Assembly (NCBI RefSeq): GCF_014208035.1
Contig: NZ_JACHMK010000001.1
Span: 744,001 to 808,000 of the forward strand
Length of the DNA stretch: 64,000 nucleotides
Source: Schaalia hyovaginalis
Lineage (GTDB): Bacteria; Actinomycetota; Actinomycetes; Actinomycetales; Actinomycetaceae
Direction: 5' to 3'
The notes below the pieces were generated by a model. That model was not told where the DNA came from, did no database searches, and saw only the letters and a list, made by a program, of their open reading frames with translations. The translations under genes were made by a program, and so were the position numbers. The number at the start of each line of letters is the position of its first letter. Position 1 is the first letter of the stretch. Shown here piece after piece: positions 4,101-21,650 of this stretch.

Positions 4101-5098
4101 GCACTGACGCCACCAAGGCGGCCAAGCCCACCAGCCCGGTGGCCGCCTTCATCAAGTCCAACATGCAGCTCGTCATGGTGATCATCGCCCTGGTCATCAT
4201 CTACGCGTACTTCATGTTCGCCGCCCCGAACTTCGCGCAACCCAAGATCTTCACCGACATCCTCCTCCAGGCCGCATACACGGGCGTCATGGCCCTCGGC
4301 GCGACTTTCGTCATCGCGACCTCCGGCATCGACCTCTCCGTCGGCACGGGCATGACCCTCGTCGCAGTCATGGCGGGCGTCTTCCTCTCCGGCGACTTCC
4401 TCAACCTGCCGCTCGGCCTCGGCCTGATCCTCGTCCTCCTCTTCGGAGCCTTCGTCGGACTCATCAACGGCGTCAACGTGTCGGTCCTCGGCCTTCCCCC
4501 CTTCATCGCGACACTCGCGATGATGATGGTGGCCCGCGGCCTCGCGCTCATCATCTCCGGCAAGTCCACGATCTCCATCGCGAACACGGACTACATCGCC
4601 CTGTCGACGGGCAACCTCATCCCCGGCATCTCCAACGCCGCGCTGATCTTCATCCTCCTCACGGTCCTGGCCGCCTTCCTCATGAACAAGACCCTCCTCG
4701 GCCGCTACGCCCTCGCGATCGGCTCGAACGAGGAGGCGACCCGCCTCTCCGGCGTCAACGTCCGCCTGTGGAAGGTCGTCATCTACGTCACCGCCGGCGT
4801 CTTCATGGCCCTCGGCGCGATCCTCTACTCGGCCCGCTTCGGCTTCGTCCAGCCCGCCGAAGGCGTCGGCTTCGAACTCAACGTCATCGCGGCGACCGTC
4901 ATCGGCGGCACCTCGCTCTCCGGCGGCCGCGCCTCCATCCCCGGCGCCCTCGTCGGCGCGCTCATCATGGAGACCCTCAAGAAGGGCCTGACGATGATGG
5001 GCGTCGCCTCCGAATGGCAGCTCGTCGTCACCGGTATCGTCGTCCTCCTCGCAGTCTTCATCGACAACGTTCGCCGCGCTCGCGAGAACGCCGCCTGA
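4097..5098 (+). CDS. Sugar ABC transporter permease (RbsC type)
   Basis: This 333-residue integral membrane protein has about eight to ten hydrophobic segments and the family motifs GATFVIATSGIDLSVG and AATVIGGTSLSGG. The start is GTG overlapping the ATPase stop. It forms the membrane channel of the importer. The gene lies between the ATPase and lipoprotein genes, the standard CUT2 order. Confidence 0.92.
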   Translation: MSTDATKAAKPTSPVAAFIKSNMQLVMVIIALVIIYAYFMFAAPNFAQPKIFTDILLQAAYTGVMALGATFVIATSGIDLSVGTGMTLVAVMAGVFLSGDFLNLPLGLGLILVLLFGAFVGLINGVNVSVLGLPPFIATLAMMMVARGLALIISGKSTISIANTDYIALSTGNLIPGISNAALIFILLTVLAAFLMNKTLLGRYALAIGSNEEATRLSGVNVRLWKVVIYVTAGVFMALGAILYSARFGFVQPAEGVGFELNVIAATVIGGTSLSGGRASIPGALVGALIMETLKKGLTMMGVASEWQLVVTGIVVLLAVFIDNVRRARENAA

Positions 5099-5187: not shown

Positions 5188-6231
5188 ATGCGCCCCATCG
5201 GACGTATCGTCGCCGTCGCCGCCGCCGGCACCATGGCACTCGGCCTCGCCGCGTGCTCGACCTCCACCGACACGAGCAAGCCCGCTGAAGAAGCGGCCTC
5301 GGGCACCACCGCAACCACCGAGGAAGCGGCCGAAGAGTCGACCGACGTTCCCAAGGGTGATGGCACCAAGACCATCTACCTCGTCTCCAAGGGCTTCCAG
5401 CACCGCTTCTGGCAGGCCGTCAAGGAAGGCGCCGAGCAGGCGGGCGAGGAGTTCAACTACAAGGTCGAATTCGTCGGTCCCGATGACGAGACCAAGGTGA
5501 CCCAGCAGCTCGACCAGCTCACCGCCGCCCTCGACACCAAGCCCGCCGCCATCGGCCTCGCCGCCCTCGACACGGGCGCCGCCTCCTCGATCCTCGACCA
5601 GATCAAGGCCGCGGAGATCCCGCTCGTCGCCTTCGACTCCGGCGTCGACTCCGACCTCCCGCTCACCACGGTGTCGACCGACAACTACGCCGCCGCCGAA
5701 GAAGCCGCCAAGCACATGATCGAGCTGCTCAAGGACAAGACCGGCTCCGTCGGCCTCATCTGCCACGACGCCACCTCGCAGACCGGCAAGCAGCGCTGCC
5801 AGGGCTTCAAGGACTACTTCTCGAAGAACGCCCCCGAGGGCCTCAAGCTCCTCGACGAGCAGATCGCCGGTGAGGTCGGCAAGGCCGCCGACACCTCGAA
5901 GGCCATCATCCAGGCGAACTCCGACATCGTCGGCATGTACGGCTCGAACGAGGCCGCCGCGACCGGCGCCATCCAGGGCGCCAATGAGTCCGGCAAGACC
6001 CTCACGGTCGTCGGCTTCGACTCCGGCAAGACCCAGATCGCCGCGATCAAGGACGGCTCGCAGGCCGGCGCCGTCACCCAGGCCCCGAAGCTCATGGGCT
6101 ACAAGACCGTGACCGCCGCGATCCAGGCCATCAACGGCATCGCCCTCCCGAAGACGATCGACTCCGGCTTCTACTGGTACGACAAGTCCAACATCGAAGA
6201 CCCGACCATCGCCCCTAACCTCTACGAGTGA
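5188..6231 (+). CDS. Sugar-binding lipoprotein of the ABC importer
   Basis: This 347-residue protein is of the periplasmic-binding-protein type 1 (RbsB) family. The start at ATG 5188 follows a GAAAGG ribosome site; an ATG at 5173 is in frame but poorly placed. A lipoprotein signal peptide ends in the lipobox LAAC with the lipidated Cys at 23. An acidic Ala/Thr/Glu-rich linker follows (residues 24-55), then the binding domain beginning TIYLVSKGFQHRFW. The fucose isomerase downstream suggests L-fucose or a related 6-deoxyhexose as ligand; that is inferred from context only. Confidence 0.9.
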   Translation: MRPIGRIVAVAAAGTMALGLAACSTSTDTSKPAEEAASGTTATTEEAAEESTDVPKGDGTKTIYLVSKGFQHRFWQAVKEGAEQAGEEFNYKVEFVGPDDETKVTQQLDQLTAALDTKPAAIGLAALDTGAASSILDQIKAAEIPLVAFDSGVDSDLPLTTVSTDNYAAAEEAAKHMIELLKDKTGSVGLICHDATSQTGKQRCQGFKDYFSKNAPEGLKLLDEQIAGEVGKAADTSKAIIQANSDIVGMYGSNEAAATGAIQGANESGKTLTVVGFDSGKTQIAAIKDGSQAGAVTQAPKLMGYKTVTAAIQAINGIALPKTIDSGFYWYDKSNIEDPTIAPNLYE

Positions 6232-6360: not shown

Positions 6361-8121
6361 ATGACTGATCACCCCCGTATCGGAATCCGCCCGACCATCG
6401 ACGGTCGTCGCCGCGGCGTCCGTGAGAGCCTCGAAGAGCAGACGATGGGCATGGCTGAGCGGGTCGCCAAGCTCTTCTCGGAGAACCTCCGCTACCCCGA
6501 CGGCGCCCCCGTCGAGTGCGTCATCGCCGACACGACCATCGGCCGCGTGAACGAGGCCCAGGCCTGCGCCGAGAAGTTCAAGAAGAACAACGTCGGCCTC
6601 ACCCTCACCGTCACCCCCTGCTGGTGCTACGGCACCGAAACGACCGACATGGACGCGACCATGCCGCACGCGATCTGGGGCTTCAACGGCACCGAGCGCC
6701 CGGGCGCGGTCTACCTCGCCGCCGCCCTGGCCGGCCACGCCCAGATCGGCATCCCCGCCTTCGGCATCTACGGCAAGGACGTCCAGGACAGCGACGACGA
6801 TTCGATCCCCGAGGACGTGCGCCAGCGCCTGCTCGACTACGCGACCGCGGGCCTCGCCGTCGCCCAGATGAAGGGCAAGTCCTACCTCTCCATGGGCTCG
6901 GTGTCCATGGGCATCGCGGGCTCGGTTGTCAACCCCGACTTCTTCGGCGCCTACCTCGGCATGCGCAACGAGTACATCGACATGTCCGAGTTCACCCGTC
7001 GCATCGACGAGGGCATCTACGACCACGAGGAGTACGAGAAGGCCTACGCCTGGATCCGTGAGAACCTCACCCAGGGCGAGGACTTCAACATCCCCGAGGA
7101 GCAGTTCCCCGAGAAGTACGAGGAGTGGTGGAAGTTCACCACGAAGATGACCCTCATCGGCCGCGACCTCATGAACGGCAACCCGAAGCTCGCGGAGATG
7201 GGCTTCGAAGAAGAGGCCGGCGGTCACGGCGCGATCGCGGCGGGCTTCCAGGGACAGCGCCAATGGACCGACCACTTCCCCAACGGCGACGTCATGGAGA
7301 CGCTGCTCAACACCAACTTCGACTGGAACGGCCCGCGCCAGCCCAACGTCCTCGCCACCGAGAACGACTCGCTGAACGGCACCTCGATGCTGTTCAACTA
7401 CCTCCTCACGAACACGCCGCAGATCTTCTCCGACGTGCGCACCTACTGGAGCCCCGAGTCGATCGAGCGCGTGACCGGCTGGAAGCCCGAAGGCCGTGCG
7501 GCGGTCGGCCTCCTCGACCTGCGCAACTCCGGTTCCACCACCCTCGACGGCGCGGGCCTGTCCCTGCGCGACGGCGAGAACGTCATCAAGCCCTGGTGGG
7601 AGATCACCGAGGAGGACGAGAAGGCCGCTCTCGCAGCGACCACCTTCCACCCGGCGGCCACCGGCTACTTCCGCGGCGGCGGCTTCTCGACCCACTTCCG
7701 CACGGCGGGCGAGATGCCCGTGACGATGTGCCGCGTCAACCTCGTCGCCGGCCAGCCGGTCATCCAGATCGCTGAAGGCTGGACGGTCGAGCTGCCCGAC
7801 GAGGTCGCGACCCTCATCGAGGAGCGCACCGACCGTGCGTGGCCGACCACCTGGTTCGTCCCGAACCTCACGGGCGAAGGCGCCTTCAAGTCCGTCTACG
7901 ACGTGATGAACAACTGGGGCGCCAACCACGGTGCGATCACCTACGGGCACATCGGCGCCAAGCTCATCACCCTGGCCTCGATGCTCCGCATCCCGGTGAA
8001 CATGCACAACGTCCCCGAAGAGCAGATCTTCCGCCCCAAGGCCTGGTCGCTCTTCGGCACCGAATCCCTCGAAGCCGCGGACTACCGCGCCTGCGAGAAG
8101 TTCGGACCGCTGTACCGCTGA
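6361..8121 (+). CDS. fucI: L-fucose isomerase
   Basis: This 586-residue cytoplasmic enzyme converts L-fucose to L-fuculose and usually also acts on D-arabinose. It matches the known E. coli protein (about 590 residues) almost end to end. Signatures include [20 protein letters not shown] at the N terminus, [54 protein letters not shown] and [12 protein letters not shown]; the last three cover the metal-site region. The start is ATG at 6361 behind GAAGGA. An ORF extending upstream to 6235 is unlikely because that stretch is hairpin-rich and lacks family similarity. Confidence 0.97.
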
Positions 8122-8362: not shown

Positions 8363-9769
8363 ATGACCACCGCACTCGCCGTCGACCTCGGTTCCGCTTC
8401 CGGACGCGTGCTCGCAGGCACGATCGTCGACGATCGGATCGAGGTCACCGATATCCATCGCTTCAAGCACCAGGCGATCCGCAAGAACGGCTCCCTGATC
8501 TGGGACGTCGACACGATGCTGGAGGAGACGATCATCGGCCTGCGCAAGGCCGTCGAACTCTTCCCCGATTCCGTGTCCGTCTCCGTCGACACCTGGGGCG
8601 TGGACTTCGTCCCTCTCGATGAGGATGACGAGCGCGTCGGCGAGGCGCGCGCGTACCGGGATGAACGCACGACCCGCACCCTCGAGCGCTTCCGCGAGCT
8701 CGTCGACGACCGGGTCTTCTTCGACATGTCGGGCAATCAGCCCGCGACGATCAACACGGCGAACCAGCTGGTGGCCTTCCGCCTCGAGGACCCCGAGCTG
8801 GCGGCGCGCACCAGGCGGATCCTCTTCCTGCCCGACTATTTCGCCTTCCGCCTCAGCGGAGTCAAGGGCTGGTCGCGCACCATCGCCTCCACTTCCGGCC
8901 TGTGCGAGCCGGGGGCCCGGCGATTCAACGACGAGATGTTCACCCGGCTCGGCATCGAGCGCTCGTGGGTCGGGGAGCTCGATGAGGACCTCACGGTCGT
9001 CGGCCCCTGCACCGTTCCCGGCCTCGAGCGCCTCACGGTCGTTCGCGGGGGCGCCCACGATTCGGCCTGCGCGGTCCACGGCCTGCCCATCGACGAGGGC
9101 GTGCGCGCCTACTTCCTCTCGGCCGGGAGCTGGTCGGTCCTCGGCGCGATCGAGGCCGCCCCGATCATGTCGGATGCCGCGTATGAGATCGGCTTGACGA
9201 ATGAGGGGCGGACCGATGGGGGAGTCCGTCCGCTGTTCAACATCACGGGCATGTGGATCCTCCAGGAGATCCAGCGCCAGTGGGAGCGCGAGGGCACGCC
9301 CACCGACACCGATGAGCTCGTCGCCCAGGCGCGCGCTTGCGCGCCCTGCACCCACTTCTTCGATCCTGATGATCCGCGCTTCGCCGAGCCCGGGGAGATG
9401 CAGCAGAAGATCGATGCGGCGCTCGATGAGCAGGGCGCTCCGCATCCGAGTTCGATGCCGGAGTACGTGCGCCTCATCATCGAGTCCTTCGCCAGGCGCT
9501 ACGCCCGAGCCGTCGACGACCTGGCCCGGATCTCCGGGACGCGGCCCGACCAGCTCAACATCGTCGGCGGAGGCTCGCGCAACCGCCTCCTGTGCGATCT
9601 GACGGCCCGGCTCGCCAAGGTGCGCGTGGTCGCCGGCCCGATCGAGGCCTCGACCCTGGGATCGCTCCTCGCGCAGCTCGAGATCCTCGGCCATCTCAAC
9701 CCCGCCGACCGTCCGTCGATCATCGCCGCATCCGCGAAGACCCATGTCCACACGCCGGCTCGCGACTAA
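8363..9769 (+). CDS. FGGY carbohydrate kinase, rhamnulokinase-like (probable fuculokinase role)
   Basis: This 468-residue kinase of the FGGY family (acetate kinase/Hsp70 fold) carries the N-terminal phosphate motif DLGSASGR (8-15), VSVDTWGVDFV, GGAHDSACAV, GSWSVLG and GGGSRN. Overall it resembles RhaB (L-rhamnulokinase) more than FucK. Beside fucI it most plausibly phosphorylates L-fuculose at O1. The ribosome site is GGAAGGAAG. Its 3' end overlaps the LacI gene by 26 bp. Confidence 0.88.
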   Translation: MTTALAVDLGSASGRVLAGTIVDDRIEVTDIHRFKHQAIRKNGSLIWDVDTMLEETIIGLRKAVELFPDSVSVSVDTWGVDFVPLDEDDERVGEARAYRDERTTRTLERFRELVDDRVFFDMSGNQPATINTANQLVAFRLEDPELAARTRRILFLPDYFAFRLSGVKGWSRTIASTSGLCEPGARRFNDEMFTRLGIERSWVGELDEDLTVVGPCTVPGLERLTVVRGGAHDSACAVHGLPIDEGVRAYFLSAGSWSVLGAIEAAPIMSDAAYEIGLTNEGRTDGGVRPLFNITGMWILQEIQRQWEREGTPTDTDELVAQARACAPCTHFFDPDDPRFAEPGEMQQKIDAALDEQGAPHPSSMPEYVRLIIESFARRYARAVDDLARISGTRPDQLNIVGGGSRNRLLCDLTARLAKVRVVAGPIEASTLGSLLAQLEILGHLNPADRPSIIAASAKTHVHTPARD

Positions 9770-10739
9770 GAAGGTCTCCCTCGCGGACGTCGCCGAGCTC
9801 GCCGGAGTCTCGACGAATACCGTCTCGCGCGTCGTCCGCGGGGATCCGGAGGTGGCGGACGCGACGCGCAAACGGATCACGACCCTCCTCAACGAGGTCG
9901 GGTACCGTCCGAACTACGCTGCGCGGGCGCTCGCGGCCAAGCGGACCGGCGTCCTGCACGTCCTCCTCGCGGCGCCGATGTTCCACGGCCACGGGCGGGT
10001 CCTGCTCTCGGTGCTCAACGCCGGTTCCGAGGCGGGCTATCACGTCTCACTCTCCAACGCCTACCGCGCGGACGGGAGCCTCGGATCCGATGTCGCGCCT
10101 TTCGACGTCGATGCGGTCGTCATCCTGGCCGGCCAGGATCCGACCGTCGAACTCGCCGTTGACATCGGCAAACGCGTCCCCACCGTGCTCGTCCTCACGA
10201 GCGAGAAGGGGCTCGACGGGATCTCGACCGCCGCGATCGACAATGTGAAGGGCGCGCGCCTGGCGACGCAGCACCTGCTCATGCAGGGCGTGAGCGACAT
10301 CATCCACGTCGCGGGGCCCTCGGGATGGTCCGATGCCGCGATGCGCAAGCAGGGGTTCCTCCAAGCGTGCGACGAGTACGGCGTCCAGGGGCGCGTGATC
10401 GAATCGCAGTCGTGGAACTCCCAGGACGGATACGACGTCATGGGCTCGGTTCGGCGCCTTCCCGAGGCGGTCCAGACCGCGAACGACCAGCTCGCCCTCG
10501 GCGCCATGCGCCTCATCCACGAACGCGGGGCCGGAGTGCCCGGGGATGTCAAAGTCGTCGGCTTCGACGACATCGACGGCGCGGACTGCTATTCGCCCCC
10601 GCTGACGACGATCCGCCAGCCCTTCGACCGTCTCGGCCGGACCGCGGTGAGGATCGCCCGATCCATGATCGAGGGCGGCTCGACCGAGGACGTCACCATC
10701 GACCCGGAACTCGTCATCCGCGCGAGCTCTACTTTGTGA
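9744..10739 (+). CDS. LacI-family transcriptional regulator of the fucose-type operon
   Basis: This 331-residue protein has an N-terminal helix-turn-helix and hinge (KVSLADVAELAGVSTNTVSRVVRG, from about residue 10, and YRPNYAARAL). A sugar-binding domain ends with the family's VVGFDDIDGADCYSPPLTTIRQPFD. The start codon lies inside the kinase gene, implying translational coupling. The two palindromes at 2400 and 2508 are of the type this family binds, so it probably autoregulates the whole operon. The gene is internal rather than at the promoter. Confidence 0.9.
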   Translation: MSTRRLATKKVSLADVAELAGVSTNTVSRVVRGDPEVADATRKRITTLLNEVGYRPNYAARALAAKRTGVLHVLLAAPMFHGHGRVLLSVLNAGSEAGYHVSLSNAYRADGSLGSDVAPFDVDAVVILAGQDPTVELAVDIGKRVPTVLVLTSEKGLDGISTAAIDNVKGARLATQHLLMQGVSDIIHVAGPSGWSDAAMRKQGFLQACDEYGVQGRVIESQSWNSQDGYDVMGSVRRLPEAVQTANDQLALGAMRLIHERGAGVPGDVKVVGFDDIDGADCYSPPLTTIRQPFDRLGRTAVRIARSMIEGGSTEDVTIDPELVIRASSTL

Positions 10740-10752
10740 AAGGACAGTGCAC

Positions 10753-11184
10753 ATGATCTACGGCGCTCTTACGCACCCCCAACTCCTGCGGGCTCTCGCC
10801 GCGGCCGGACACGGATCCAAGATCCTCCTCGCCGATGCGAACTACCCGCACACGACCGGTGTGAATCCGAGGTGCGAGCTCGTCTCCTTGAACTTCGCGC
10901 CGGGCATGCTCGACGTCATCCAGATCACGGAGGTCCTCAAGCAGGTCTGCCCGATCGAGAAGGCGGAGATCATGGTCCCCGCGCCCGACGCCGAGCAGGT
11001 GGAGATCCCGATCCACGACGAGTTCAAGGCGCTGCTGCCCGATACCGAGTTCGCGGAGCTGTCGCGTTTCGACTTCTACGATGCGGCGCGTTCGGAGGAT
11101 GTCGGCATCATCATCGCGACCGGTGAGCAGCGCCTCTACGGGAATCTGCTCCTCACCGTGGGCGTCCGTCAGCCGGGGGAGTGA
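10753..11184 (+). CDS. fucU: FucU/RbsD-type sugar mutarotase
   Basis: This 143-residue protein interconverts anomers of fucose (FucU) or ribose (RbsD). The motif AAAGHGSKILLADANYPHT holds the conserved His at residue 20, and the C terminus has TGEQRLYGNLLLTVGV, as in FucU. The ATG at 10753 is preceded by AAGGA, so the GTG at 10747 was not used. It is the last gene of the fucose-type operon. Confidence 0.9.
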   Translation: MIYGALTHPQLLRALAAAGHGSKILLADANYPHTTGVNPRCELVSLNFAPGMLDVIQITEVLKQVCPIEKAEIMVPAPDAEQVEIPIHDEFKALLPDTEFAELSRFDFYDAARSEDVGIIIATGEQRLYGNLLLTVGVRQPGE

Positions 11185-11382: not shown

Positions 11383-11411
11383 TTGAGATTTTTCGTTTTT
11401 CTCCCTAAGCT
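11383..11411 (+). promoter_or_regulatory. Promoter of the deoR-2-oxoacid dehydrogenase operon
   Basis: TTGAGA (11383-11388) and TAAGCT (11406-11411) are separated by 17 bp, in an AT-rich stretch unusual for this genome. Downstream, 11418-11458 has GAAA- and ATTCG-containing short repeats that could be DeoR-binding sites. The first gene starts at 11469. Confidence 0.6.
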
Positions 11412-11468: not shown

Positions 11469-12215
11469 GTGGGCCGAGCCGAGAGGACCAGCTTCATCCT
11501 CGATACTCTCGCCAGGGACGGCGAAGTATCGGTTTCGACCCTCGCTGAGGCCCTCGACGTCTCCCCCGTGACGATCCGCACCACGCTCAAGGAGCTCGAA
11601 GACGAGGGCTACCTCGTCCGCACGCACGGCGGCGCACGGCCCACCGCCTACCGCAACATCCGCCTGCGCCAGAACGACCGCATCGCCGAGAAGGAGCGGA
11701 TCGCCCGCGCCGCGGCCGAAATGGTCCGCGATGACGACCGGATCATGATCGAAGCGGGCACCACCTGCTCGCTCGTCGTCAAGTACCTCACCGCCCGGCG
11801 CGGCATCCAGATCGTCACGAACTCGCTCCTCGTCTTCGCCAACGCCCGTCCCAATCCGAACATCGACGTGACGCTCACGGGCGGCCGCTTCCACGCGGAG
11901 ACCGAATCCCTCATCGGCCCCGTCACCGAACGGGCTCTCAACGCCTTCAACGCGCGCCTCGTCTTCCTCGGCACCGACGGCTTCGGCGTCGATCGGGGCC
12001 TGACCACGCAGCTCGCCGAAGGAGGGCATGTGGGCACGCTCATGCGGGCCCGCGCCGAAGAGACGTGGTGCCTCGCCGACTCGTCCAAGTACGGGCGGGC
12101 CGGCTTCGTCAGCTTCATGGGGATCGAGGATGTCACCGGGATCATCACCGATGGCGGCCTCCCCGAAGAATCCATCAAGGAATTGACCGAGCGCACGCGC
12201 GTGCGCCTCGTCTAG
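11469..12215 (+). CDS. DeoR/GlpR-family transcriptional regulator
   Basis: This 248-residue protein has an N-terminal winged helix-turn-helix (RTSFILDTLARDGEVSVSTLAEALDVSPVTIRTTLKEL). The DeoRC sugar-phosphate sensor domain shows IMIEAGTTCSLVVKYL, VTNSL and FLGTDGFGVDRGLTT. Family members typically respond to phosphorylated sugars. The start is GTG at 11469. It is 10 bp upstream of the E2 gene, so it heads and probably controls the seven-gene operon that runs to 21650. Confidence 0.9.
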   Translation: MGRAERTSFILDTLARDGEVSVSTLAEALDVSPVTIRTTLKELEDEGYLVRTHGGARPTAYRNIRLRQNDRIAEKERIARAAAEMVRDDDRIMIEAGTTCSLVVKYLTARRGIQIVTNSLLVFANARPNPNIDVTLTGGRFHAETESLIGPVTERALNAFNARLVFLGTDGFGVDRGLTTQLAEGGHVGTLMRARAEETWCLADSSKYGRAGFVSFMGIEDVTGIITDGGLPEESIKELTERTRVRLV

Positions 12216-12225
12216 GAGGAAACAC

Positions 12226-13578
12226 ATGGCCGCCATCGTGGTGATGCCTCAGCTGGGCAACTCTGTGGAGTCCTGCATTATCGTCGAGTGGCTGATCAAG
12301 GAGGGCGACGAGGTCGCCGTTGACCAGACGCTGTGCTCGATCGAGACTGACAAGTCCACCATGGAGGTCCCCAGCACCGAAGCGGGCACCGTCCTCAAGC
12401 TCCTGTGGGAAGAGGGCGACGAGGTCCCGGTCAAGGACCCGCTCATCATCGTCGGCGCCCCCGGCGAGGACGTCTCCGCCCTCGTCCCCGGTTCCGAGGG
12501 CGGGGCCGAAGCGCCCGCCCAGGCCGAAGCGGAAGCCGCTCCGAGCCTCGAGGAAGCCCCCGCCCCCTCCTTCGCGACCGCCGCCGCGACCGGCGCGGTC
12601 TCGCCGCGCGCCCGGGCGCTCGCGGGCGCCAAGGGCATCGACGTCTCCGCCATCGCCGAGGGCTCCGGACCGCACGGCCGCGTCATCGAACGCGATGTTC
12701 AGGCCGCGATCGCCGCGGGCCCGGCCTACACCTCCGCCGCCCAGCACATCGGCGGAACGGCCGAGACCGGCACCGGCCTCGGCGGGCGCGTCACCACCTC
12801 CGACCTCGCCCGTCCCGCGGCCGAAGCCCCCGCGGCCGTCGCGGCCCCCGCGCTCGCGATCCCCGCGGCCGACTTCCCGGGCGCCTCCACTTCCGAGAAG
12901 CTCAAGGGCGTCCGCAAGGTCGTCGCCCAGCGGATGATGGCCTCGCTCGCTCAGAGCGCTCAGCTCACCCTCAACACCTCCGCGAAGGCCGACGGCCTGC
13001 TCGCGATGCGCAAGAAGTTCAAGAACTCGGACGAGTCCCTCGGCCTGAGCCGGATCACCCTCAACGACCTGGTCTGCTACGCGGTCGTCAAGGTCCTCCC
13101 GAAGTACCCCGTGTTCAACTCCCACCTCGAGGACGGCGTCCTGACGACCTTTGAGCAGGTCCACCTCGGCTTCGCCGCCGATACCCCCCGCGGCCTCCTC
13201 GTCCCGGTGATCCGCTCGGCCCAGTCGCTCACCCTCAAGCAGTTCTCCGCGGAGGCCAAGCGCCTCGGCGCCGCGGCGAACGAGGGCGCCCTGTCGCCCG
13301 ACCACCTCAGCGGCGGAACCTTCACCGTGTCGAACATCGGCGCTTTCGGCATCGAATCCTTCACGCCCGTCATCAACCTGCCCCAGACCGCGATCCTCGG
13401 GGTCGCGGCGATCACGCCGCGCCCCGTCGTGAACGCCGACGGCACCATCGGAGCCGAGCAGCGTATCGGGCTGTCCCTCACGATCGACCACCAGGTCATC
13501 GACGGCGCCGACGGCGCCCGATTCCTCAAGGACCTCGTCGCCGCGATCGAGAACATCGACATCACGGTCCTCGCCTGA
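12226..13578 (+). CDS. E2 acyltransferase of a 2-oxoacid/acetoin dehydrogenase-like complex
   Basis: This 450-residue protein has one lipoyl domain (residues 1-80, lipoyl Lys43 in ETDKSTMEV), an Ala/Pro linker, a peripheral-subunit-binding domain (SPRARALAGAKGIDVSAIAEGSGPHGRVIERDV written here in part: SPRARALA to GRVIERDV, about 125-160), a second linker, and a catalytic domain ending in the active-site motif DHQVIDGADGARFL. It carries acyl groups from E1 to CoA. The AGGAGG ribosome site is 8 bp upstream. The acyl specificity (acetyl or other) cannot be read from the sequence. Confidence 0.9.
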   Translation: MAAIVVMPQLGNSVESCIIVEWLIKEGDEVAVDQTLCSIETDKSTMEVPSTEAGTVLKLLWEEGDEVPVKDPLIIVGAPGEDVSALVPGSEGGAEAPAQAEAEAAPSLEEAPAPSFATAAATGAVSPRARALAGAKGIDVSAIAEGSGPHGRVIERDVQAAIAAGPAYTSAAQHIGGTAETGTGLGGRVTTSDLARPAAEAPAAVAAPALAIPAADFPGASTSEKLKGVRKVVAQRMMASLAQSAQLTLNTSAKADGLLAMRKKFKNSDESLGLSRITLNDLVCYAVVKVLPKYPVFNSHLEDGVLTTFEQVHLGFAADTPRGLLVPVIRSAQSLTLKQFSAEAKRLGAAANEGALSPDHLSGGTFTVSNIGAFGIESFTPVINLPQTAILGVAAITPRPVVNADGTIGAEQRIGLSLTIDHQVIDGADGARFLKDLVAAIENIDITVLA

Positions 13579-13600
13579 GAGCCCCTCGAAGGAGAAAACA

Positions 13601-14968
13601 ATGACTGAAACCCATTTCGACGTCATCATCCTCGGCGCGGGCCCCGGCGGATACCTCGCCGCGGAGCGCCTCGGCCACGCCGGCAAGAAGGTCCTCCTCA
13701 TCGAGGAGCAGTACCTCGGCGGCACCTGCCTCAACGTCGGCTGCATCCCGACGAAGACCCTGCTCGCCGGGGCGAAGAACTATCTCCACGCCAAGGAGGC
13801 CGGCCAATTCGGGGTCGACGTCACCGGCGTCACCCTCGACTGGGCGCGCCTGCAGGCCTGGAAGGACCAGGTCGTCAAGGGCCTCGTCTCCGGCGTCGCG
13901 GCCACTGAGAAGCGCGCCGGGGTCACCGTCGTCAACGCCCGCGGGCACTTCGACGGCCCGGGGCGCGTGAGCGCCGAGGGCGTTCAGTACACCGCCGAGC
14001 ACGTCATCATCGCGACCGGCTCGGTCCCCGCGGTCCCGCCGATCCCGGGAGCCAAGGACAACCCCGCGGTCGTCGACTCGACCGGCATCCTGTCCCTGCC
14101 CGAGGTGCCGGGGCGCCTCGCCGTCATCGGCGGCGGCGTCATCGGCGTCGAGTTCGCCTCCCTGTACGCGACTCTCGGCTCCGAAGTCACGGTCATCGAG
14201 ATGACCCCCGAGATCCTCCCCTTCATGGATGACGACATGGCCGCGAAGATGCGCAAGGCGATGAAGGACATCACCTTCGAGCTCGGCTGCCGCGTCGAAT
14301 CCCTCGACGGCGCCACGGTCCACTACTCCAAGGGCGAGGAGAAGAAGTCCATCGAGGCCGACGTGGTCCTCATGGCCGTCGGCCGGCGCTCGGCGACCTT
14401 AGGCTGGGGAGCCGAAGAAGCCGGACTCGAGATCAACCGCGGCATCGTCGTGGACGACTGCATGCGCACGAACCTGCCCAACGTCTGGGCGATCGGCGAC
14501 GTCACCGGCCGCTCGCTCCTGGCCCACGCCGCCTACCGCATGGGCGAGATCGCCGCCGCCAACATCTGCGACCCCGAAGCCGCCAAGCGTGGCGAGGTCA
14601 TGCGCTGGAGCACCGTGCCGTGGGCCGTCTACTCCAACCCCGAAGCGGCGGGCGTCGGCCTCACCGAGTCGGCGGCGAAGAAGGAGGGCCGGGAAGTCCT
14701 CGTCGGCAAGGTCCCGGCGCAGATGTCCGGCCGCTTCATCGCGGAGAACGGCTTCAAGGCCCCCGGCGAGGCGAAGATCCTCGTCGATCCGGCGACCCAC
14801 CAGATCCTCGGCATCCACGTCCTCGGCGCCTACGCCGCCGAGATGATCTGGGGCGCGCAGGCCGTCCTCGAGATGGAACTCACCGTCGAGGACCTCCGGC
14901 AGGTCGTCTTCCCCCACCCCACAGTTTCCGAAGTCATCCGCGAAGCGGCCTGGGCCGTCAAGCTCTGA
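13601..14968 (+). CDS. lpdA: E3 dihydrolipoyl dehydrogenase
   Basis: This 455-residue flavoprotein reoxidises the E2 lipoyl group. The FAD motif [10 protein letters not shown] is at 12-21, the redox disulfide in [13 protein letters not shown] (Cys43, Cys48), the NAD-binding [13 protein letters not shown] in the middle, the second FAD motif [10 protein letters not shown], and the C-terminal His-Glu motif HPTVSE. It lies 22 bp after E2 with its own GAAGGAG ribosome site. Confidence 0.95.
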
Positions 14969-14996
14969 AACCCCACCGAGAAAGAAGCAAGCCAAC

Positions 14997-17447
14997 ATGA
15001 CGAAGTCACTCATCGTCGATCCCGCCAAGGTGCGTGCGGCCGGCCGCGTCGAGTTCCCCGAGGTCCCCGTCAACCAGTACGCCTTCGACCTCGACACCGA
15101 GCTCGGGCGCTACGGCCGTGACGGCATGGTCAACATGCTCCACGATATGATCGTCGTCCGGACCTTCGAATCGATGCTCGACTCGATCAAGAAGACCGGC
15201 GAATGGCAGGGCATCGCCTACAACCACAAGGGCCCGGCCCACCTCGGCATCGGTCAGGAATCCGCCTACGTCGGCCAGGCGGCCGTCCTCACCCCCGATG
15301 ACCAGGTCTTCGGATCGCACCGCTCGCACGGCGAGATCCTCGCCAAGTGCTACTCCGCGATGCGCCAGATGCCGGCCGACCGGCTCGAGGCGATCATGAA
15401 GGACTTCCTCGGCGGCGAGACCCTCTCCTTCGCCGAGAAGATCGACTACGCGGACACCGCCGAGCTCACCGAGAACTTCATCCTCTTCGGCGCCCTCGCC
15501 GAGATCTTCGCCCGCAAGGCGGGCTTCAACCGCGGCCTCGGCGGTTCGATGCACACCTTCTTCCTGCCCTTCGGGTCCTACCCGAACAATGCGATCGTCG
15601 GCGGCTCCGCCCCGGTCGCCAACGGCGCGGCCCTCTTCAAGCGGATCAACCGCAAGCCCGGCATCGTCGTCTCCAACGTCGGCGACGCCGCGCTCGCCTG
15701 CGGCCCGGTCTGGGAGGCCATGAACTTCGCCGCCATGGACCAGTTCCGCACGCTGTGGCGCGAGGAGGACGGCGGCAACCCGCCGATCCTGTTCAACTTC
15801 TTCAACAACTTCTACGGCATGGGCGGCCAGACCTTCGGCGAGACCATGGGCTACGACATCCTCGCCCGCGTCGGCGCGGCCCTCAACCCCGAGGCCATGC
15901 ACGCCGAGCGCGTCGACGGCATCAACCCCCTCGCCGTCGCCGATGCGGTCTCCCGCAAGAAGAAGATCCTCGAGGAGGGCCGCGGCCCCGTCCTCATGGA
16001 CACCATCACCTACCGCTTCTCGGGCCACTCGCCCTCGGACGCGTCCTCGTACCGCACGAAGGAAGAGGTCGAGCTCTGGGAGAACGTCGACTGCATCAAG
16101 GAGTACTCCGAGCTCCTCATCTCCAACGGCCTGACCACGCAGTCCGACATCGACGACTACAGCGCGGCCCTCACCGAGAAGCTCGTCAAGGTCCTCAAGC
16201 TGGCGATCGATGAGGAGAACTGCCCGCGAGTCGCCGACGGCTACATCGACACCGTGATGTTCTCCAACACCCCCACGGAGAAGATGGCCGAGGGCGAGGC
16301 CGAGATCGACCTCGCCGACAACCCGCGCGTCAAGGCCCTCGAGAAGAAGGTCCGCACCGCCTTCGATGAGAACGGCAAGCCGGTCTCGAAGATGAGGATG
16401 TACCAGTTCCGCGACGGCCTTTTCGAAGCGATGCTCCACCGCTTCAAGGAGGACCCGACGATGGCGGCCTGGGGCGAGGAGAACCGCGACTGGGGCGGCG
16501 CATTCGCCGTCTACCGCGGCCTCACCGAGGCCCTGCCGTACCGCCGCCTCTTCAACTCGCCGATCGCCGAGGCCTCGATCGTCGGCGCCGGCGTGGGCTA
16601 CGCGATGGCCGGCGGCCGCGCGGTCGTCGAGCTCATGTACTGCGACTTCCTCGGCCGAAGCGGCGACGAGGTCTTCAACCAGATGGCCAAGTGGCAGTCG
16701 ATGTCCGCCGGCCTGCTCAAGATGCCGCTCGTCCTGCGCGTCTCCGTCGGCAACAAGTACGGCGCCCAGCACTCCCAGGACTGGTCGGCCCTCACCGCCC
16801 ACATCCCCGGCCTCAAGGTCTACTTCCCGACCACGCCGACCGATGCGAAGGGCATGCTCAACCTCGCCCTGCGCGGCACCGACCCGGTCGTCTTCTTCGA
16901 GTCCCAGCTCCTCTACGACAAGGGCGAGGAGTTCGAGCCCGGCGGCGTTCCCGAGGGCTACTACGAGACCCCCGAGGGCGAGCCGGCGATCCGCCGCGAA
17001 GGCACCGACATCACGATCGCGGGCTACGGCGCCACGATCTACCGGGCCCTCGAGGCCGCCGACATCCTCCAGGAGAAGTACGGCATGAGCGCCGAGGTCA
17101 TCGACCTGCGCTTCGTCGCCCCGCTCAACTACGACAAGCTCATCGCCTCGGTGAAGAAGACCGGCCGACTGCTCCTGACCTCGGATGCGGTCGAGCGCGG
17201 CAACTTCCTCCACACGGTCGCCGGCAACGTCCAGACCCTCGCCTTCGACGCCCTCGACGCGCCGATCGCGATCGTCGGCTCGCGCAACGGCATCACCCCG
17301 GGCCCCGAGTTGGAGTCCTACTTCTTCCCCCAGCCCGAGTGGATCATCGATGCGATCCACGAGCGCATCGTCCCGCTCCCGGGGCACGTGCCCTCCACCA
17401 ACCAGACCGAGGGCGAGATCGCCCGTCGTAACCGCCTCGGTCTGTGA
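14997..17447 (+). CDS. Fused E1 alpha-beta thiamine-diphosphate dehydrogenase component
   Basis: This 816-residue protein joins the two chains that are usually separate genes. The alpha part (about 30-420) contains [14 protein letters not shown] and the TPP/Mg motif beginning GDAALACG and ending FNFFNN. The beta part (about 465-800) begins [13 protein letters not shown] and includes [27 protein letters not shown] and [12 protein letters not shown]. It decarboxylates a 2-oxoacid or cleaves an acetoin-like substrate and passes the acyl unit to E2. Gene order E2-E3-E1 and the non-glycolytic neighbours argue against housekeeping pyruvate dehydrogenase. Confidence 0.88.
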
Positions 17448-17581
17448 GGCCTCCCGGCGGGCGGGCTCGACCTGCCCGCCGGGCCCCGCCCTCGTCCCAC
17501 TTCCCCGCGCGGACCCGCCCTCGTCGCCCAGGACCGGGCTCGCTCCGCGCACACGTCAACCCCCACGCTCACGAGGAACCG

Positions 17582-18883
17582 ATGGACGCCACCAATGACG
17601 CGCGCCTGACCCAGGCAGAGCGCCTCGAAGCCCTGAAGGCCGCGATCCGAGGCGAGGCCTTCCCCGATTGGGTCGCCGAATCGAACAACCACATTCACAC
17701 GTGCTACTCCTTCAGCCCCTACACGCCGACGGAGGCCGCGCTGCGCGCCCGTCGCGCAGGGCTGCGCGTCGTCGGCTCGGTGGACCACGATTCCATCGGA
17801 GCCGCGGCCGAGATGACCGCCGCCTGCCGCGCCCTCGGCATGGGGTCGGTCACCGGCTTCGAGATCCGGGCCTTCTTCGACCCGGACGGCCCCTTCGCGA
17901 CCCGCAAGCTCAACAATCCGGACTCCGAGGGCGTCGCCTACATGACCGTGCAGGGCGTTCCCGCCCCCGCGCGCGAGAAGGTCGCCGAGTGGCTCGCGCC
18001 GAAGCGCGCCGCACGCCTCGAACGGACCCTGAAGATGGCCGCCGCCGCGAACGGGATCCTCGAAGGGCTCGGCCTCGATCCCTTCGACCCGCAGGCCGAC
18101 ATGGTCGGCATCTCCCAGTACGACAACGGGGGCGGCATCACCGAGCGCCATCTGCTCGCCGCGATGGCGACCTCGCTCATCAAGGGCTTCGGCCGCGGCC
18201 CCTCCCTGATCGGGGGCCTGGAGAAGATGGGGGTTTCGATTCCCCCCACCCTGGTCGGCGCCCTCGGCGACGCCGACAACCCGCATCTCATGTTCGACCT
18301 CCTCGGCCTGCTCAAGGCCGAATACCTCGATCGGATCTACATCCAGCCCGGCGACGAGCTCCCGACGGCCGCCGAGGTCGTCGCCTTCGCCGATTCGATC
18401 GGCGCGATCGCCACTTACGCCTACCTCGGCGACGTGTCGGCCTCGCCCACGGGCGACAAGAAGGCCGAGAAGTTCGAGGACGAGTTCCTCGACGAGCTCT
18501 TCGAGAAGCTGGAGGAGCTCGGTCTGCGCGCCGTCACCTACATGCCGCCGCGCAACACTGCCGCCCAGCTCGCGCGCATCCACGAGCTCGCGCTCAAGCA
18601 CGGCATGCTCGAGATCTCCGGCGTCGACATCAACCAGCCCCGCCAGCAGTTCAACTGCCCTGAACTGCGCGCCCCCGAGTTCGCCGACCTCAACGAGGCG
18701 ACGTGGGCGATGGTCGCCCACGAGGCCCTGAGCTCCATCGACCCCGGGCTCCATCTGCTCGGCTCGGGGCGCATGAGCCCCGAACGCCTGGCCGAGCGCA
18801 TCGCGGACTACGCCCCCCTGGGCCGCGCGATCGCCGATGGCGCCGACCCCGCAGAACTCGCCGCAACGGCCCCCAGGGCCTGA
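17582..18883 (+). CDS. PHP-domain metal-dependent hydrolase
   Basis: This 433-residue protein has an N-terminal PHP metal-binding signature: His37-x-His39 in NNHIHTCYSFSPYTP and Asp68-His69-Asp70 in GSVDHDS, followed by VTGFEIRAFF. PHP enzymes hydrolyse phosphoester bonds on small molecules or nucleic acids, but this long version is not a recognised polymerase, histidinol-phosphatase or RNase AM form. It sits between the E1 and SDR genes, so it probably removes phosphate from, or otherwise processes, a pathway intermediate. The ATG at 17582 follows a GAGGAA site. The real substrate is unknown. Confidence 0.75.
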   Translation: MDATNDARLTQAERLEALKAAIRGEAFPDWVAESNNHIHTCYSFSPYTPTEAALRARRAGLRVVGSVDHDSIGAAAEMTAACRALGMGSVTGFEIRAFFDPDGPFATRKLNNPDSEGVAYMTVQGVPAPAREKVAEWLAPKRAARLERTLKMAAAANGILEGLGLDPFDPQADMVGISQYDNGGGITERHLLAAMATSLIKGFGRGPSLIGGLEKMGVSIPPTLVGALGDADNPHLMFDLLGLLKAEYLDRIYIQPGDELPTAAEVVAFADSIGAIATYAYLGDVSASPTGDKKAEKFEDEFLDELFEKLEELGLRAVTYMPPRNTAAQLARIHELALKHGMLEISGVDINQPRQQFNCPELRAPEFADLNEATWAMVAHEALSSIDPGLHLLGSGRMSPERLAERIADYAPLGRAIADGADPAELAATAPRA

Positions 18884-18943
18884 GCGGTCACGCACAGTAC
18901 TCCGGCCGATCATCGCTGTCGGCCCGCCACGGAAGGACACATC

Positions 18944-19960
18944 ATGACTCATGCGCCCCTCGTCAGGGGACTCTTCCTGGGTGCGCTTGCCCGCCCGGTG
19001 ATCGTCCGCGCCACGCAGGCTCCCGCGGCCCTCGACCTCGGCGACGATCCGCGCGCCATCGACCCCGCCTCCCTGGCCGGGACCGATCTGCCCGTCGTCG
19101 TCTCCGTCGGAGGCGAGACCTATGAGGTCACCGGCCAGGCCGTTTCCGACCGGGCCATCACCGGCCGTGTCGCCCTCGTCACCGGCGGGGCGCAGGGCTT
19201 CGGCGCAGAGATCGCCAAGGGCCTGGTCGACCAGGGCTGCTTCGTCTACATCGCCGACCTCAACGCCGAGGGCGCGAGCGCGAAGGCCGCCGAACTCGGT
19301 GAACTCGCCCACCCGATCGCCGTCAACGTGGCCGACGAGGACTCGGTTTCGGCGATGGTCGAAGAGATCGAGCGCGTGACGGGCGGTCTCGACCTCGTCG
19401 TCTCGAACGCGGGCATCGTCCGCGCCGGCTCCGTCCTCGAGCAGGACACCGCCGCCTTCCGCCTGTCGACCGACATCAACTACGTCGCCTTCTTCCTCGT
19501 GACGAAACACCTCGGCGGCCTCCTGGCCCGTCAGTACGAGACTTCGGGCGGATGGCTCACCGACATCATCCAGATCAACTCGAAGTCCGGACTCGTCGGC
19601 TCGAACAAGAACGCCGCCTACGCGGGCTCGAAGTTCGGGGGCATCGGCCTCGTCCAGTCCTTCGCCCTCGAGCTCGTCGAGCACGGCGTGAAGGTGAACG
19701 CGATCTGCCCGGGCAACTTCTACGACGGGCCGCTGTGGTCCGACCCGGTCAAGGGCCTCTTCGTCCAGTACCTCGAGTCGGGCAAGGTCCCCGGCGCGAC
19801 GACCGTCGAAGAGGTGAAGGAGGCCTATGTCTCGAAGGTCCCGATGCGCCGCGGTGCGAACGGACTCGACGTGCTCCGCGCGATCTTCTACCTCGTCGAA
19901 CAGGCCTATGAGACCGGCCAGGCCCTGCCGGTGACCGGCGGCCAGGTCATGCTCAACTGA
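18944..19960 (+). CDS. Short-chain dehydrogenase, sorbitol-6-phosphate-dehydrogenase-like, with N-terminal extension
   Basis: This protein has 338 residues; the SDR core begins near residue 74 (GRVALVTGGAQGFGAEIAKGL). The core carries the NAD-binding TGGAQGFG, VSNAGI, the catalytic Ser region INSKSG and YAGSKFGG with the catalytic Tyr-Lys. The C-terminal half (GNFYDGPLW, SKVPMRRG, GQALPVTGGQVML) is that of the SrlD branch, which oxidises sorbitol 6-phosphate-like polyol phosphates. The first 73 residues have no counterpart in ordinary SDRs and are not a signal peptide. Substrate assignment is by family only. Confidence 0.82.
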   Translation: MTHAPLVRGLFLGALARPVIVRATQAPAALDLGDDPRAIDPASLAGTDLPVVVSVGGETYEVTGQAVSDRAITGRVALVTGGAQGFGAEIAKGLVDQGCFVYIADLNAEGASAKAAELGELAHPIAVNVADEDSVSAMVEEIERVTGGLDLVVSNAGIVRAGSVLEQDTAAFRLSTDINYVAFFLVTKHLGGLLARQYETSGGWLTDIIQINSKSGLVGSNKNAAYAGSKFGGIGLVQSFALELVEHGVKVNAICPGNFYDGPLWSDPVKGLFVQYLESGKVPGATTVEEVKEAYVSKVPMRRGANGLDVLRAIFYLVEQAYETGQALPVTGGQVMLN

Positions 19961-20039
19961 CGCTCGAGCGCCGACCGGCCATCGGGCGGCGCGCACCCCA
20001 CAGGCGATACCGCCCCCACCTCCAAGCGAAGGACGCGAC

Positions 20040-21650
20040 ATGCCCACCTATCCCGAATCGCAGTACGCAATCCAGATCGTCGGCAAGGACGAGTTCATCG
20101 TCAACGATCGCAAGCCGATCGATCCGGTCGGCCCGCATCAGATGATGCTCGAGGTCGAGGCCTGCGGCATCTGCTTCTCCGATACGAAGCTCCTCCACCA
20201 GTTCGATTCGCACCCGCGCAAGTCGGAGGTGATCGCGGGCATCGATCTCGAGGCCCTCGCTGAGATCCCCGGCTATCGCCCCGGAACCCAGCCGACGACC
20301 CCCGGGCACGAGCCGGTCGCCCGCGTCGTCGAGGTCGGTGAGAAGGTCACGCACTTCAAGGTCGGCGACCGCGTCCTCGTCCAGGCGGACTGGAAGCACC
20401 TGCGGACCGCGAAGTCGAACGGGGCCTTCGGGTACAACTTCGACGGCGCCCTCGAGGAGTTCGTCGTCGTCGACGAGCGCTGCGTCGTATCGCCCGAGGG
20501 CGAGGAGTTCCTCATCCACGTCAGCGATGGCCCCTCGGCGGCGGCCGTCGGCCTCATCGAGCCCTGGGCGACGGTCGAGGGCTCCTACGCGTGGGCCGAA
20601 CGCGATCACATCGCCGACGGGGGCGCGCTCCTGGTCGTGGGCGAGGGCTCCGTCGATTCGCTGACGGCCGAGCGCGCCCCCGCCTCGGTGGAGCGCGTCG
20701 AGGCCTCCGTGGCGGCGCTCGACGCCCTCGAGGGCCGGACCTTCGACGACATCGTCGCCTTCACCGCCGATCCCGAGGTCATCGAGAAGGCGTCGCTGCT
20801 GCTCGGGACCCGCTCGGTGATGTGCGTCGTCCTGAACGGTGGGACGATCTCCCGGAAGGTGTCCTTGGACATCGGCCGCGTCCACTACGACTTCATCCGC
20901 TTCTGCGGCACGACCGGGTCGGACCCGGCGGAGGGCTACGCGTGGATCCCCGCCAACGGCGATCTGCGCGAGAACGACAAGTGCGCCTTCATCGGCGCCG
21001 CGGGCCCGATGGGCGTCATGCACACGATGCGCGCCGTCACCTCGGGCGTGCCCGGGCTCAGCGTGGTCGGCACGGACCTGTCGGATGAGCGCCTCGAGAA
21101 CCTCAAGAAGGTCGTCGGCCCGACCGCTGAGAAGAACGGCGTTCCGCTGGAGATCCTCAACACCTCGACGAGCCCCCTCGAGTACGGCTACACCTACGTC
21201 ACCTGCCTGGTGCCCGTGCCGCCGCTCGTGTCCCAGGCGGTCGACATGTGCGCCGAGGGCGCGATCCTCAACGCCTTCGCCGGCATCCCGGCGGGGACCT
21301 TCGGCGATTTCGACCTCCAGGGCATCATCGAACGCAGGATCTTCATGCTCGGCACCTCCGGCTCGGATGTGTCCGATATGCGCACGGTCCTGCGCAAGAT
21401 CGAGGCGGGGATCATCGACACGACGATCTCGCTGTGGGCGGTCACCGGCATGGCCGGGTTCGGCGATGCGATCAACGCGGTGATGGATCGGACCTCGGGC
21501 GGCAAGATCATGGTCTTCCCGAAGCTCCACGATCTCGGTCTGACGCCGGTGTCCGAGCTCGCCGAGAAGTTCCCCGAGGTCGCGGCGAAGCTGGAGAACG
21601 GCTTGTGGACCAAGGCGAGCGAGGAGGCGCTGCTCGCGACGGCGAAGTGA
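20040..21650 (+). CDS. Large zinc-type (MDR) dehydrogenase with two Rossmann-like segments
   Basis: This protein has 536 residues, against about 350 for ordinary medium-chain dehydrogenases. The N-terminal GroES-like domain shows the catalytic zinc region EACGICFSD (Cys42, Asp48) and PGHEPVARVVEVGEKVTHFKVGD. Residues 190-300 look like a worn Rossmann domain (ALLVVGEGSVD, then FDDIVAFTADPEVI and SVMCVVLNGGT). An intact nucleotide motif follows at about 322 (CAFIGAAGPMGVMHTM), with a second full C-terminal half. It resembles SorE/L-sorbose-1-phosphate-reductase-like enzymes. It is the last gene of the deoR operon. Confidence 0.75.
   Translation: MPTYPESQYAIQIVGKDEFIVNDRKPIDPVGPHQMMLEVEACGICFSDTKLLHQFDSHPRKSEVIAGIDLEALAEIPGYRPGTQPTTPGHEPVARVVEVGEKVTHFKVGDRVLVQADWKHLRTAKSNGAFGYNFDGALEEFVVVDERCVVSPEGEEFLIHVSDGPSAAAVGLIEPWATVEGSYAWAERDHIADGGALLVVGEGSVDSLTAERAPASVERVEASVAALDALEGRTFDDIVAFTADPEVIEKASLLLGTRSVMCVVLNGGTISRKVSLDIGRVHYDFIRFCGTTGSDPAEGYAWIPANGDLRENDKCAFIGAAGPMGVMHTMRAVTSGVPGLSVVGTDLSDERLENLKKVVGPTAEKNGVPLEILNTSTSPLEYGYTYVTCLVPVPPLVSQAVDMCAEGAILNAFAGIPAGTFGDFDLQGIIERRIFMLGTSGSDVSDMRTVLRKIEAGIIDTTISLWAVTGMAGFGDAINAVMDRTSGGKIMVFPKLHDLGLTPVSELAEKFPEVAAKLENGLWTKASEEALLATAK

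Follow-up and report, generated by a model that had tools for sequence, protein, structure and literature searches.

The L-fucose operon in a 64,000-nt stretch of the Schaalia hyovaginalis genome (NZ_JACHMK010000001.1, positions 744,001 to 808,000; 'the window', with coordinates below counted from its first letter) encodes an ABC transporter, FucI, a kinase, a LacI-type regulator and FucU, and contains no aldolase gene, which raises the question of how L-fuculose-1-phosphate is broken down. A missing fuculose-phosphate aldolase is listed as unsolved in a published survey. Directly downstream of this operon lie seven genes (11469-21650, + strand) for a DeoR-family regulator, the E2, E3 and fused E1 components of a 2-oxoacid dehydrogenase-type complex, a polymerase and histidinol phosphatase (PHP)-fold protein, a short-chain dehydrogenase/reductase (SDR) and an unusually large medium-chain dehydrogenase/reductase (MDR). 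Comparison with relatives indicates that this module very probably takes the place of L-fuculose-1-phosphate aldolase, and a sister version of it accompanies L-rhamnose genes. The source genome is 2.65 Mb, and Schaalia and Actinomyces supply the best named matches to its PHP and MDR proteins.

Gaps between the seven genes range from 10 to 134 nt (10, 22, 28, 134, 60 and 79 nt in order), in agreement with the short-spaced, same-strand arrangement given in the preliminary description. All but the PHP protein were assigned to families by Pfam and NCBIfam profile searches: DeoR (11469-12215; PF00455, 157.7 bits, and PF08220), E2 acyltransferase with lipoyl, E3-binding and catalytic domains (12226-13578; PF00364, PF02817 and PF00198, the last at 238 bits), E3 dihydrolipoyl dehydrogenase (13601-14968; TIGR01350, 468.9 bits, cut-off 408.8), an 816-aa fused E1 alpha/beta (14997-17447; PF00676, PF02779 and PF02780), the SDR (18944-19960) and the 536-aa MDR (20040-21650; PF08240). 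The 433-aa PHP-fold protein lies at 17582-18883.

A search seeded by 23 aligned MDRs gave 183 confirmed matches, and loci for the best 80 were fetched together with flanks of up to 10 kb; tblastn replaced gene calls for low-G+C loci (e.g. L145 and L152) and for L012 and L051. The complete seven-gene order, with gaps of at most 450 nt, is kept in 23/80 loci, which disfavours a chance arrangement; these 23 are not independent, since L005, L006 and L078 are 94–97% identical to L007 across the module. E2-E3-E1 are contiguous in 43/80 loci and SDR-MDR in 61/80. The last three genes are thus conserved together with the first four, and the claim of one conserved unit stands. The records titled Sanguibacter keddieii (L005) and Xylanimonas cellulosilytica (L006), with modules 95–97% identical to that of Schaalia odontolytica (L007), are probably mislabelled.

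The 80 loci split into two main forms. In the close form, from Actinomycetaceae, Arachnia and Tessaracoccus, the SDR is short and the PHP protein is of the window type (26 loci). The distant form comes mainly from other Propionibacteriaceae, Bowdeniella, Scrofimicrobium and Chloroflexota; its PHP protein is a paralogue (25 loci; 20–22% identical to the window protein by alignment) and its SDR often has a class II aldolase domain fused to it (as scanned in L042 and read in six loci), with RhaI in 13 and RhaM in 6 of the fetched stretches (RhaI of L042, 628 bits, cut-off 531). Among the 12 Chloroflexota loci an E1 of only 32–38% identity was identified in seven, and none gave an E3 match. Across a class-level sample of 394 genomes, MDR matches at E 1e-40 or better were confined to two, the window's own and one with 34% identity over 305 residues.

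The two forms differ in their link to sugar isomerases. Searches of the 45 genomes behind 46 of these loci (L027 left out) identified FucI in 26/26 close-form genomes (G544-G569; in G560 as two pieces, each below cut-off) and in 2/19 distant-form genomes, and RhaI over cut-off in 16/19 distant-form and also 17/26 close-form genomes. In 22 of the 26, E1 and FucI are no more than 34 kb apart. The suggestion that the substrate comes from the neighbouring fucose operon is borne out to this extent. In two Tessaracoccus genomes where the MDR stands apart (G561 and G564), DeoR-E2-E3-E1-PHP-SDR are kept together, 22–33 kb from FucI. Propioniciclava tarda retains the MDR flanked only by DeoR and E1 fragments (L044:11684-12951), and in this genome neither FucI nor RhaI was detected over cut-off, nor any E1 at E 1e-60; the module may decay once the sugar isomerases are lost.

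The aldolase was searched for as the class II family PF00596 only, which leaves room for other aldolase types, and in none of the 26 close-form genomes does the FucI contig show such a gene within 20 kb of that isomerase; four of the 26 have none anywhere in the assembly. In a family-level sample of 151 genomes, 24 have a real FucI (25 hits minus a 17.7-bit fragment in G032), and an aldolase gene lies within 10 kb of FucI in 0/10 that carry the MDR and in 12/14 that do not, in all 12 within 1.6 kb (Fisher p 6.7e-5, ignoring kinship, with all ten MDR genomes in one genus). Four of those ten have no PF00596 protein at all. The two genome sets overlap (identical FucI coordinates in G102/G548, G114/G555 and G139/G553), and G005, which has the rest of the module, was counted among the 14 without the MDR. 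Ten of the FucI-adjacent aldolases were scanned: fuculose-phosphate or ribulose-1-phosphate aldolase models were best for three and the 3-oxo-tetronate-4-phosphate decarboxylase model for six, with every score below cut-off; the tenth gave no match at E 1e-30. The FucA label for these proteins therefore rests on position. The only PF00596 protein of the window genome is an AraD-type L-ribulose-5-phosphate 4-epimerase (381 bits, cut-off 251), which reaches 111.6 bits at best with fuculose aldolase models (cut-off 264).

Several observations weigh against a simple replacement. E1 lies 322 kb from FucI in one of the 26 close-form genomes and on another contig in three, and most of the 26 are drafts, in which a contig end could hide an aldolase gene. 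The MDR alone was found in the fetched stretch of six Tessaracoccus loci (L020, L021, L023, L026, L028 and L029), and in G095, which has FucI, the MDR is missing and the FucI contig carries no aldolase gene either. In G005 a class II aldolase gene is located ~125 nt beyond the module on the opposite strand, as part of a convergent cluster that also encodes a GntR regulator and a bifunctional aldolase/SDR; its product is 45% identical to one beside FucI in a module-less relative, and module and aldolase are therefore not strictly exclusive. D-arabinose is also a substrate of FucI; it is disfavoured as the main substrate here, as the sister modules go with RhaI and fucose and rhamnose are both 6-deoxy sugars.

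G005 also bears on the chemistry. Its operon (RbsACB-FucI-kinase-LacI-FucU-DeoR-E2-E3-E1-PHP-SDR) is intact and followed by a different MDR, a protein of 427 aa that has 48% identity to an annotated SorE in a sorbose phosphotransferase system (PTS) operon and 50% to E. coli YggP. The accessible text on SorE (PMC12817954) has this enzyme reducing L-sorbose-1-phosphate to D-sorbitol-6-phosphate. The window MDR matches YggP at 26% identity over 238 residues, and a further N-terminal segment matches more weakly. Its C45, H90-E91 and E174-P175, which we take to be zinc ligands, are invariant in 9/9 aligned rows including SorE and YggP. In the predicted structure (mean pLDDT 79.3) an added alpha/beta segment was read near residues 196–301, and a fold search with this model listed general MDR oxidoreductases. 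Internal duplication was rejected as the origin of the large size, two-part self-comparison giving only 15.8 bits (E 0.29). From these similarities the MDR is proposed to be a ketose-1-phosphate 2-reductase. Following import of L-fucose and its conversion by FucI and the kinase to L-fuculose-1-phosphate, steps supported by the protein families, the MDR would reduce the C2 ketone to give L-fucitol-1-phosphate, as SorE does with L-sorbose-1-phosphate and, on working through the Fischer projections, from the same face.

Sorbitol-6-phosphate dehydrogenase (PRK12384) is the best of 211 models matching the SDR, 77 bits ahead of the next (135.1 bits). The window SDR has ~70 extra N-terminal residues. 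A Pfam search gave no PF00596 domain in it, and RhaEW as such was rejected for that reason. By Fischer projection, C5 of L-fucitol-1-phosphate has the same configuration as the C2 oxidised by sorbitol-6-phosphate dehydrogenase; the SDR would oxidise this carbon (C2 in the numbering of that enzyme) to yield 1-deoxy-D-tagatose-6-phosphate, CH3-CO-CHOH-R. The two oxidations envisaged earlier for these polyol/ketose-phosphate-type dehydrogenases give way to what looks like one SorE-like reduction and one SrlD-like oxidation. Two oxidations and loss of the phosphate through the PHP protein, to a 2-oxoacid or diketone from which the complex would cleave off an acyl-CoA other than acetyl-CoA, would fit the gene content, and the PHP fold is a phosphoesterase fold; with the characterised relative SorE acting as a reductase on a ketose phosphate (accessible part of PMC12817954) and the PHP metal site apparently partly changed, particularly in the rhamnose form, we consider this distinctly unlikely.

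The product expected of these two steps is an alpha-hydroxy methyl ketone, and the fused E1 is proposed to be an acyloin-cleaving thiamine diphosphate (ThDP) enzyme. By analogy with acetoin dehydrogenase, E1/E2/E3 would cleave between C2 and C3 with ThDP and transfer the two-carbon unit to lipoate and CoA, generating acetyl-CoA, NADH and D-threose-4-phosphate. A 22-sequence tree places actinobacterial E1s of both forms in one clade (100/99) whose sisters are the fused E1s of Rhizobium, Agrobacterium and Pleomorphomonas (52–54% identity; joint clade 100/100). Chloroflexota, AcoAB, PDH-labelled (pyruvate dehydrogenase) and polyol-linked E1s fall outside this joint clade, and the module E1, with 29–31% identity to AcoAB, is in a separate clade (100/100 support), in a tree that carries long-branch warnings. 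Among the plasmid matches listed for E1 (the 25 best and a spread of 60 out of 714 records), none that covers 80% of it has an identity between 51% and 36%.

The sugar clusters in which the proteobacterial fused E1s are found also encode ABC transporters, sugar kinases and sugar-binding regulators. On Rhizobium pRL8 and plasmids of Pleomorphomonas and Agrobacterium the fused E1 is accompanied by a small lipoyl protein and an alpha/beta hydrolase (L155:14001-18484, L156:14001-18534 and L157:14001-18494). The Rhizobium hydrolase, the one scanned, scores best with the model for the E2 subunit of acetoin dehydrogenase (152.9 bits, against a cut-off of 307), and the Pleomorphomonas one is annotated acoC; this set is probably another sugar-cleaving complex. 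On a Priestia plasmid (L161:306-7943) a glucitol/sorbitol-type PTS with GutM adjoins E1alpha-E1beta-E2-E3 and a sugar-binding regulator, and the E1 alpha of this polyol-linked complex is annotated pyruvate dehydrogenase.

Elsewhere in the source genome there is an AceE-type pyruvate dehydrogenase E1 (PF17831, 255 bits, at G000:C1:1578481), and three E2 domains are present, that of the module included. The module complex is therefore not the only 2-oxoacid dehydrogenase, nor the cell's only pyruvate dehydrogenase. Neither this outcome nor a lack of conservation of the last three genes with the first four, both named in the preliminary description as results that would refute its reading, was observed. 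An ordinary second pyruvate dehydrogenase was rejected on the AceE-type E1 and the placement of the module E1 in the tree; the complex is probably not for pyruvate, and the earlier idea that it works like acetoin dehydrogenase may, by analogy, be correct.

The same evidence bears on a hidden aldolase, either outside PF00596 or the PHP protein itself, which would split L-fuculose-1-phosphate into dihydroxyacetone phosphate (DHAP) and L-lactaldehyde, with the SDR producing lactate like RhaW and the complex serving as an extra pyruvate dehydrogenase for lactate-derived pyruvate. The SDR does resemble the dehydrogenase half of TIGR02632 fusions, studied RhaEW enzymes make DHAP and L-lactate according to the accessible text of PMC3870299, an aldolase domain is retained in the rhamnose loci, and the best model for the module E2 is pyruvate dehydrogenase acetyltransferase, below cut-off. 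Such an aldolase would nonetheless leave the MDR without explanation, above all the SorE-type protein in the G005 slot, and runs counter to the absence of class II aldolase genes around FucI, the AceE-type E1 already in the genome and the distance of the module E1 from PDH-labelled and Aco sequences in the tree. We regard it as improbable.

The start of the PHP gene is most likely the ATG at 17582 and not that of an overlapping frame at 17444. Its product has no Pfam match at E 0.001 and a weak NCBIfam match (29.3 bits), and the PHP fold, that of phosphoesterases, is supported by the predicted structure. Compared with 2yb1 and 3e0f, H-x-H, DHD and E are kept, with differences at an Asp and at His positions further on; the C-terminal alignment reaches only 0.3 bits. 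At the positions that we take to bind metal, the site looks partly altered, the rhamnose form departing further, and the dephosphorylation originally ascribed to this protein is uncertain for that reason. Its substrate could be the tetrose phosphate or a phosphorylated intermediate, and its activity that of a phosphatase or of an isomerase/epimerase. In Bowdeniella nasicola (L037:7746-9989), PHP and SDR form one 747-aa protein without an aldolase domain and the full complex is present; no FucI or RhaI match over cut-off was detected in this genome. We count this fusion in favour of the pathway proposed here. Three Tessaracoccus genomes have a fructose-6-phosphate aldolase gene close to the fucose operon or to the module (L035:15710-16408, L036:7340-8050 and L151:166-837), over the PRK12656 cut-off in both that were scanned (L035 and L151); its product might handle the tetrose phosphate.

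For the sister form, L-rhamnulose-1-phosphate, the C4 epimer, would be converted via 1-deoxy-D-sorbose-6-phosphate to the same two products, because the carbon at which the sugars differ, C4, becomes the aldehyde. Identical products would explain why MDR, SDR and complex are common to fucose and rhamnose loci. The two forms differ in their SDRs, those linked to fucose being short like the window SDR and the rhamnose-linked fusions carrying the aldolase domain. In a variant of the pathway, the fucose branch would proceed as above and the fused domain would be an AraD-like C4 epimerase turning L-rhamnulose-1-phosphate into L-fuculose-1-phosphate, lost from the fucose form as unneeded. AraD epimerases belong to the same Pfam family, the domain has this distribution in the SDRs (absent in the window, present in L042 as scanned and in the six loci read), and the two ketose phosphates differ at C4 only. 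Against it, the studied RhaEW relatives are true aldolases in the accessible part of PMC3870299, and the Bowdeniella PHP-SDR fusion lacks the domain, with the proviso that neither isomerase was detected there over cut-off. We think this variant very unlikely.

At the level of sequence, the data comprise the module, its conservation, its link to FucI or RhaI, the absence of class II aldolase and the SorE-type replacement in G005. That the seven genes carry out the lower part of L-fucose breakdown without an aldolase, by a SorE/SrlD-like rearrangement followed by acyloin cleavage, has on these comparisons about an even chance of being correct. To be set against it are the low identity of the window MDR to SorE and YggP (23–26%) and its ~100 additional residues, the SDR score (211.8 bits) below the sorbitol-6-phosphate dehydrogenase equivalog cut-off (307), the fact that no use for D-threose-4-phosphate was identified, and the intact H-x-H and NHG motifs of the SDR-fused class II aldolase domain in the rhamnose loci, which may therefore cleave by aldolase. 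Unlikely in its entirety is a fuller scheme, a third bacterial route for L-fucose (and, in the sister form, L-rhamnose) in which redox rearrangement and methyl-ketone cleavage by a dedicated sugar-specific complex would be followed by conversion of D-threose-4-phosphate to D-erythrose-4-phosphate by the PHP protein as isomerase/epimerase, feeding acetyl-CoA formation and the pentose phosphate pathway without lactaldehyde, propanediol or lactate.

Travelling with FucI where the aldolase beside it is missing, the module is a concrete candidate answer to the missing aldolase of such actinobacteria. Were the proposed chemistry true, fucose would end up as acetyl-CoA in Schaalia, Actinomyces, Arachnia and Tessaracoccus and not as propanediol or lactate, changing predictions of what these bacteria feed their neighbours, and sugar-specific acetoin dehydrogenase-like complexes would become recognisable among proteins now annotated as general alpha-ketoacid or pyruvate dehydrogenases.

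The upstream operon, all on the + strand, starts with RbsA-type (2580-4100) and RbsC-type (4097-5098) sugar ABC transporter genes, both open reading frames, and a called gene for an RbsB-type solute-binding protein (5188-6231), the family names coming from sequence reading; homologues of all three adjoin FucI in L031, L035, L146, L149, L151 and L153. FucI, L-fucose isomerase (6361-8121; TIGR01089, 957 bits, cut-off 850; PRK10991, 1019.6 bits, cut-off 775), is followed by a rhamnulokinase-like FGGY sugar kinase, presumably the L-fuculose kinase (8363-9769; PF00370/PF02782), which scores 349.6 bits with TIGR02627 (cut-off 527.95) and only 73.3 bits with the fuculokinase model. An open reading frame for the LacI-type regulator (9744-10739; family by sequence reading, homologues in relatives) and a gene for a FucU/RbsD-type mutarotase (10753-11184; PRK15420, 42.6 bits, cut-off 141) complete the operon. 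The window segment 28001-40000 has a G+C content of 0.565–0.60 with positive GC skew, compared with 0.66–0.69 around it, and is a possible acquired region.

Alignment of 14 regions upstream of deoR revealed a common promoter-like pattern, TTG-17-TAnnnT, plus CTTTCGTTTT-type boxes; in the window this conserved block (11383-11411, +) reads TTGAGA, 17 nt, TAAGCT, with one such box. A promoter scan gave no sigma-70 matches (0.4 in shuffled sequence), the block before deoR not being among its hits, and three terminator-like sites (4.1 in shuffles). Upstream of the RbsA gene, TCGTTAACGnTAACGA occurs twice as a 16-bp palindrome (2399-2414 and 2507-2522); these sites are likely operators of the LacI-type regulator, and DeoR would regulate the seven-gene set. 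Given these different elements before each, the two operons are probably controlled separately.

No description of this pathway, its genes or its intermediates was found in the open-access literature searched, and an aldolase-free fucose route would be new if confirmed. With the FucI-FucK-FucA pathway the system shares FucI, kinase, FucU mutarotase and transporter; it differs in having the module in place of FucA. The RhaI-RhaB-RhaEW pathway described for rhamnose (Rodionova et al. 2013, PMC3870299, accessible text) is similar in that the module SDR resembles RhaW and the rhamnose-linked sister modules occur with RhaI, RhaM, a RhaB-like kinase and an aldolase-SDR fusion, whereas PHP, MDR and E1/E2/E3 are not described in that text, the word PHP never occurring in its main part, and the fucose form is without the aldolase domain. 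The PHP phosphoesterases (Cv1693, RNase AM type) share the fold of the module protein. Another near system is the L-sorbose pathway (SorE and sorbitol-6-phosphate dehydrogenase), which also pairs an MDR with an SDR on an L-ketose-1-phosphate and whose SorE type occupies the MDR slot in G005. The module operons differ from it in having no PTS, in the proposed progression from a 6-deoxyketose to a 1-deoxyketose phosphate, and in a larger, distant MDR linked to a 2-oxoacid dehydrogenase-type complex. Acetoin dehydrogenase (AcoABC plus E3) has separate, distantly related E1 subunits in place of the fused module E1, and its AcoC is of the lipoyl plus alpha/beta-hydrolase type, unlike the PF00198-type E2 of the module. 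Common to both are a ThDP-dependent E1 alpha/beta, a lipoyl E2 and E3, and the proposed conversion of an alpha-hydroxy methyl ketone to acetyl-CoA and an aldehyde, and the nearest plasmid-borne fused E1s found adjoin an AcoC-like hydrolase.

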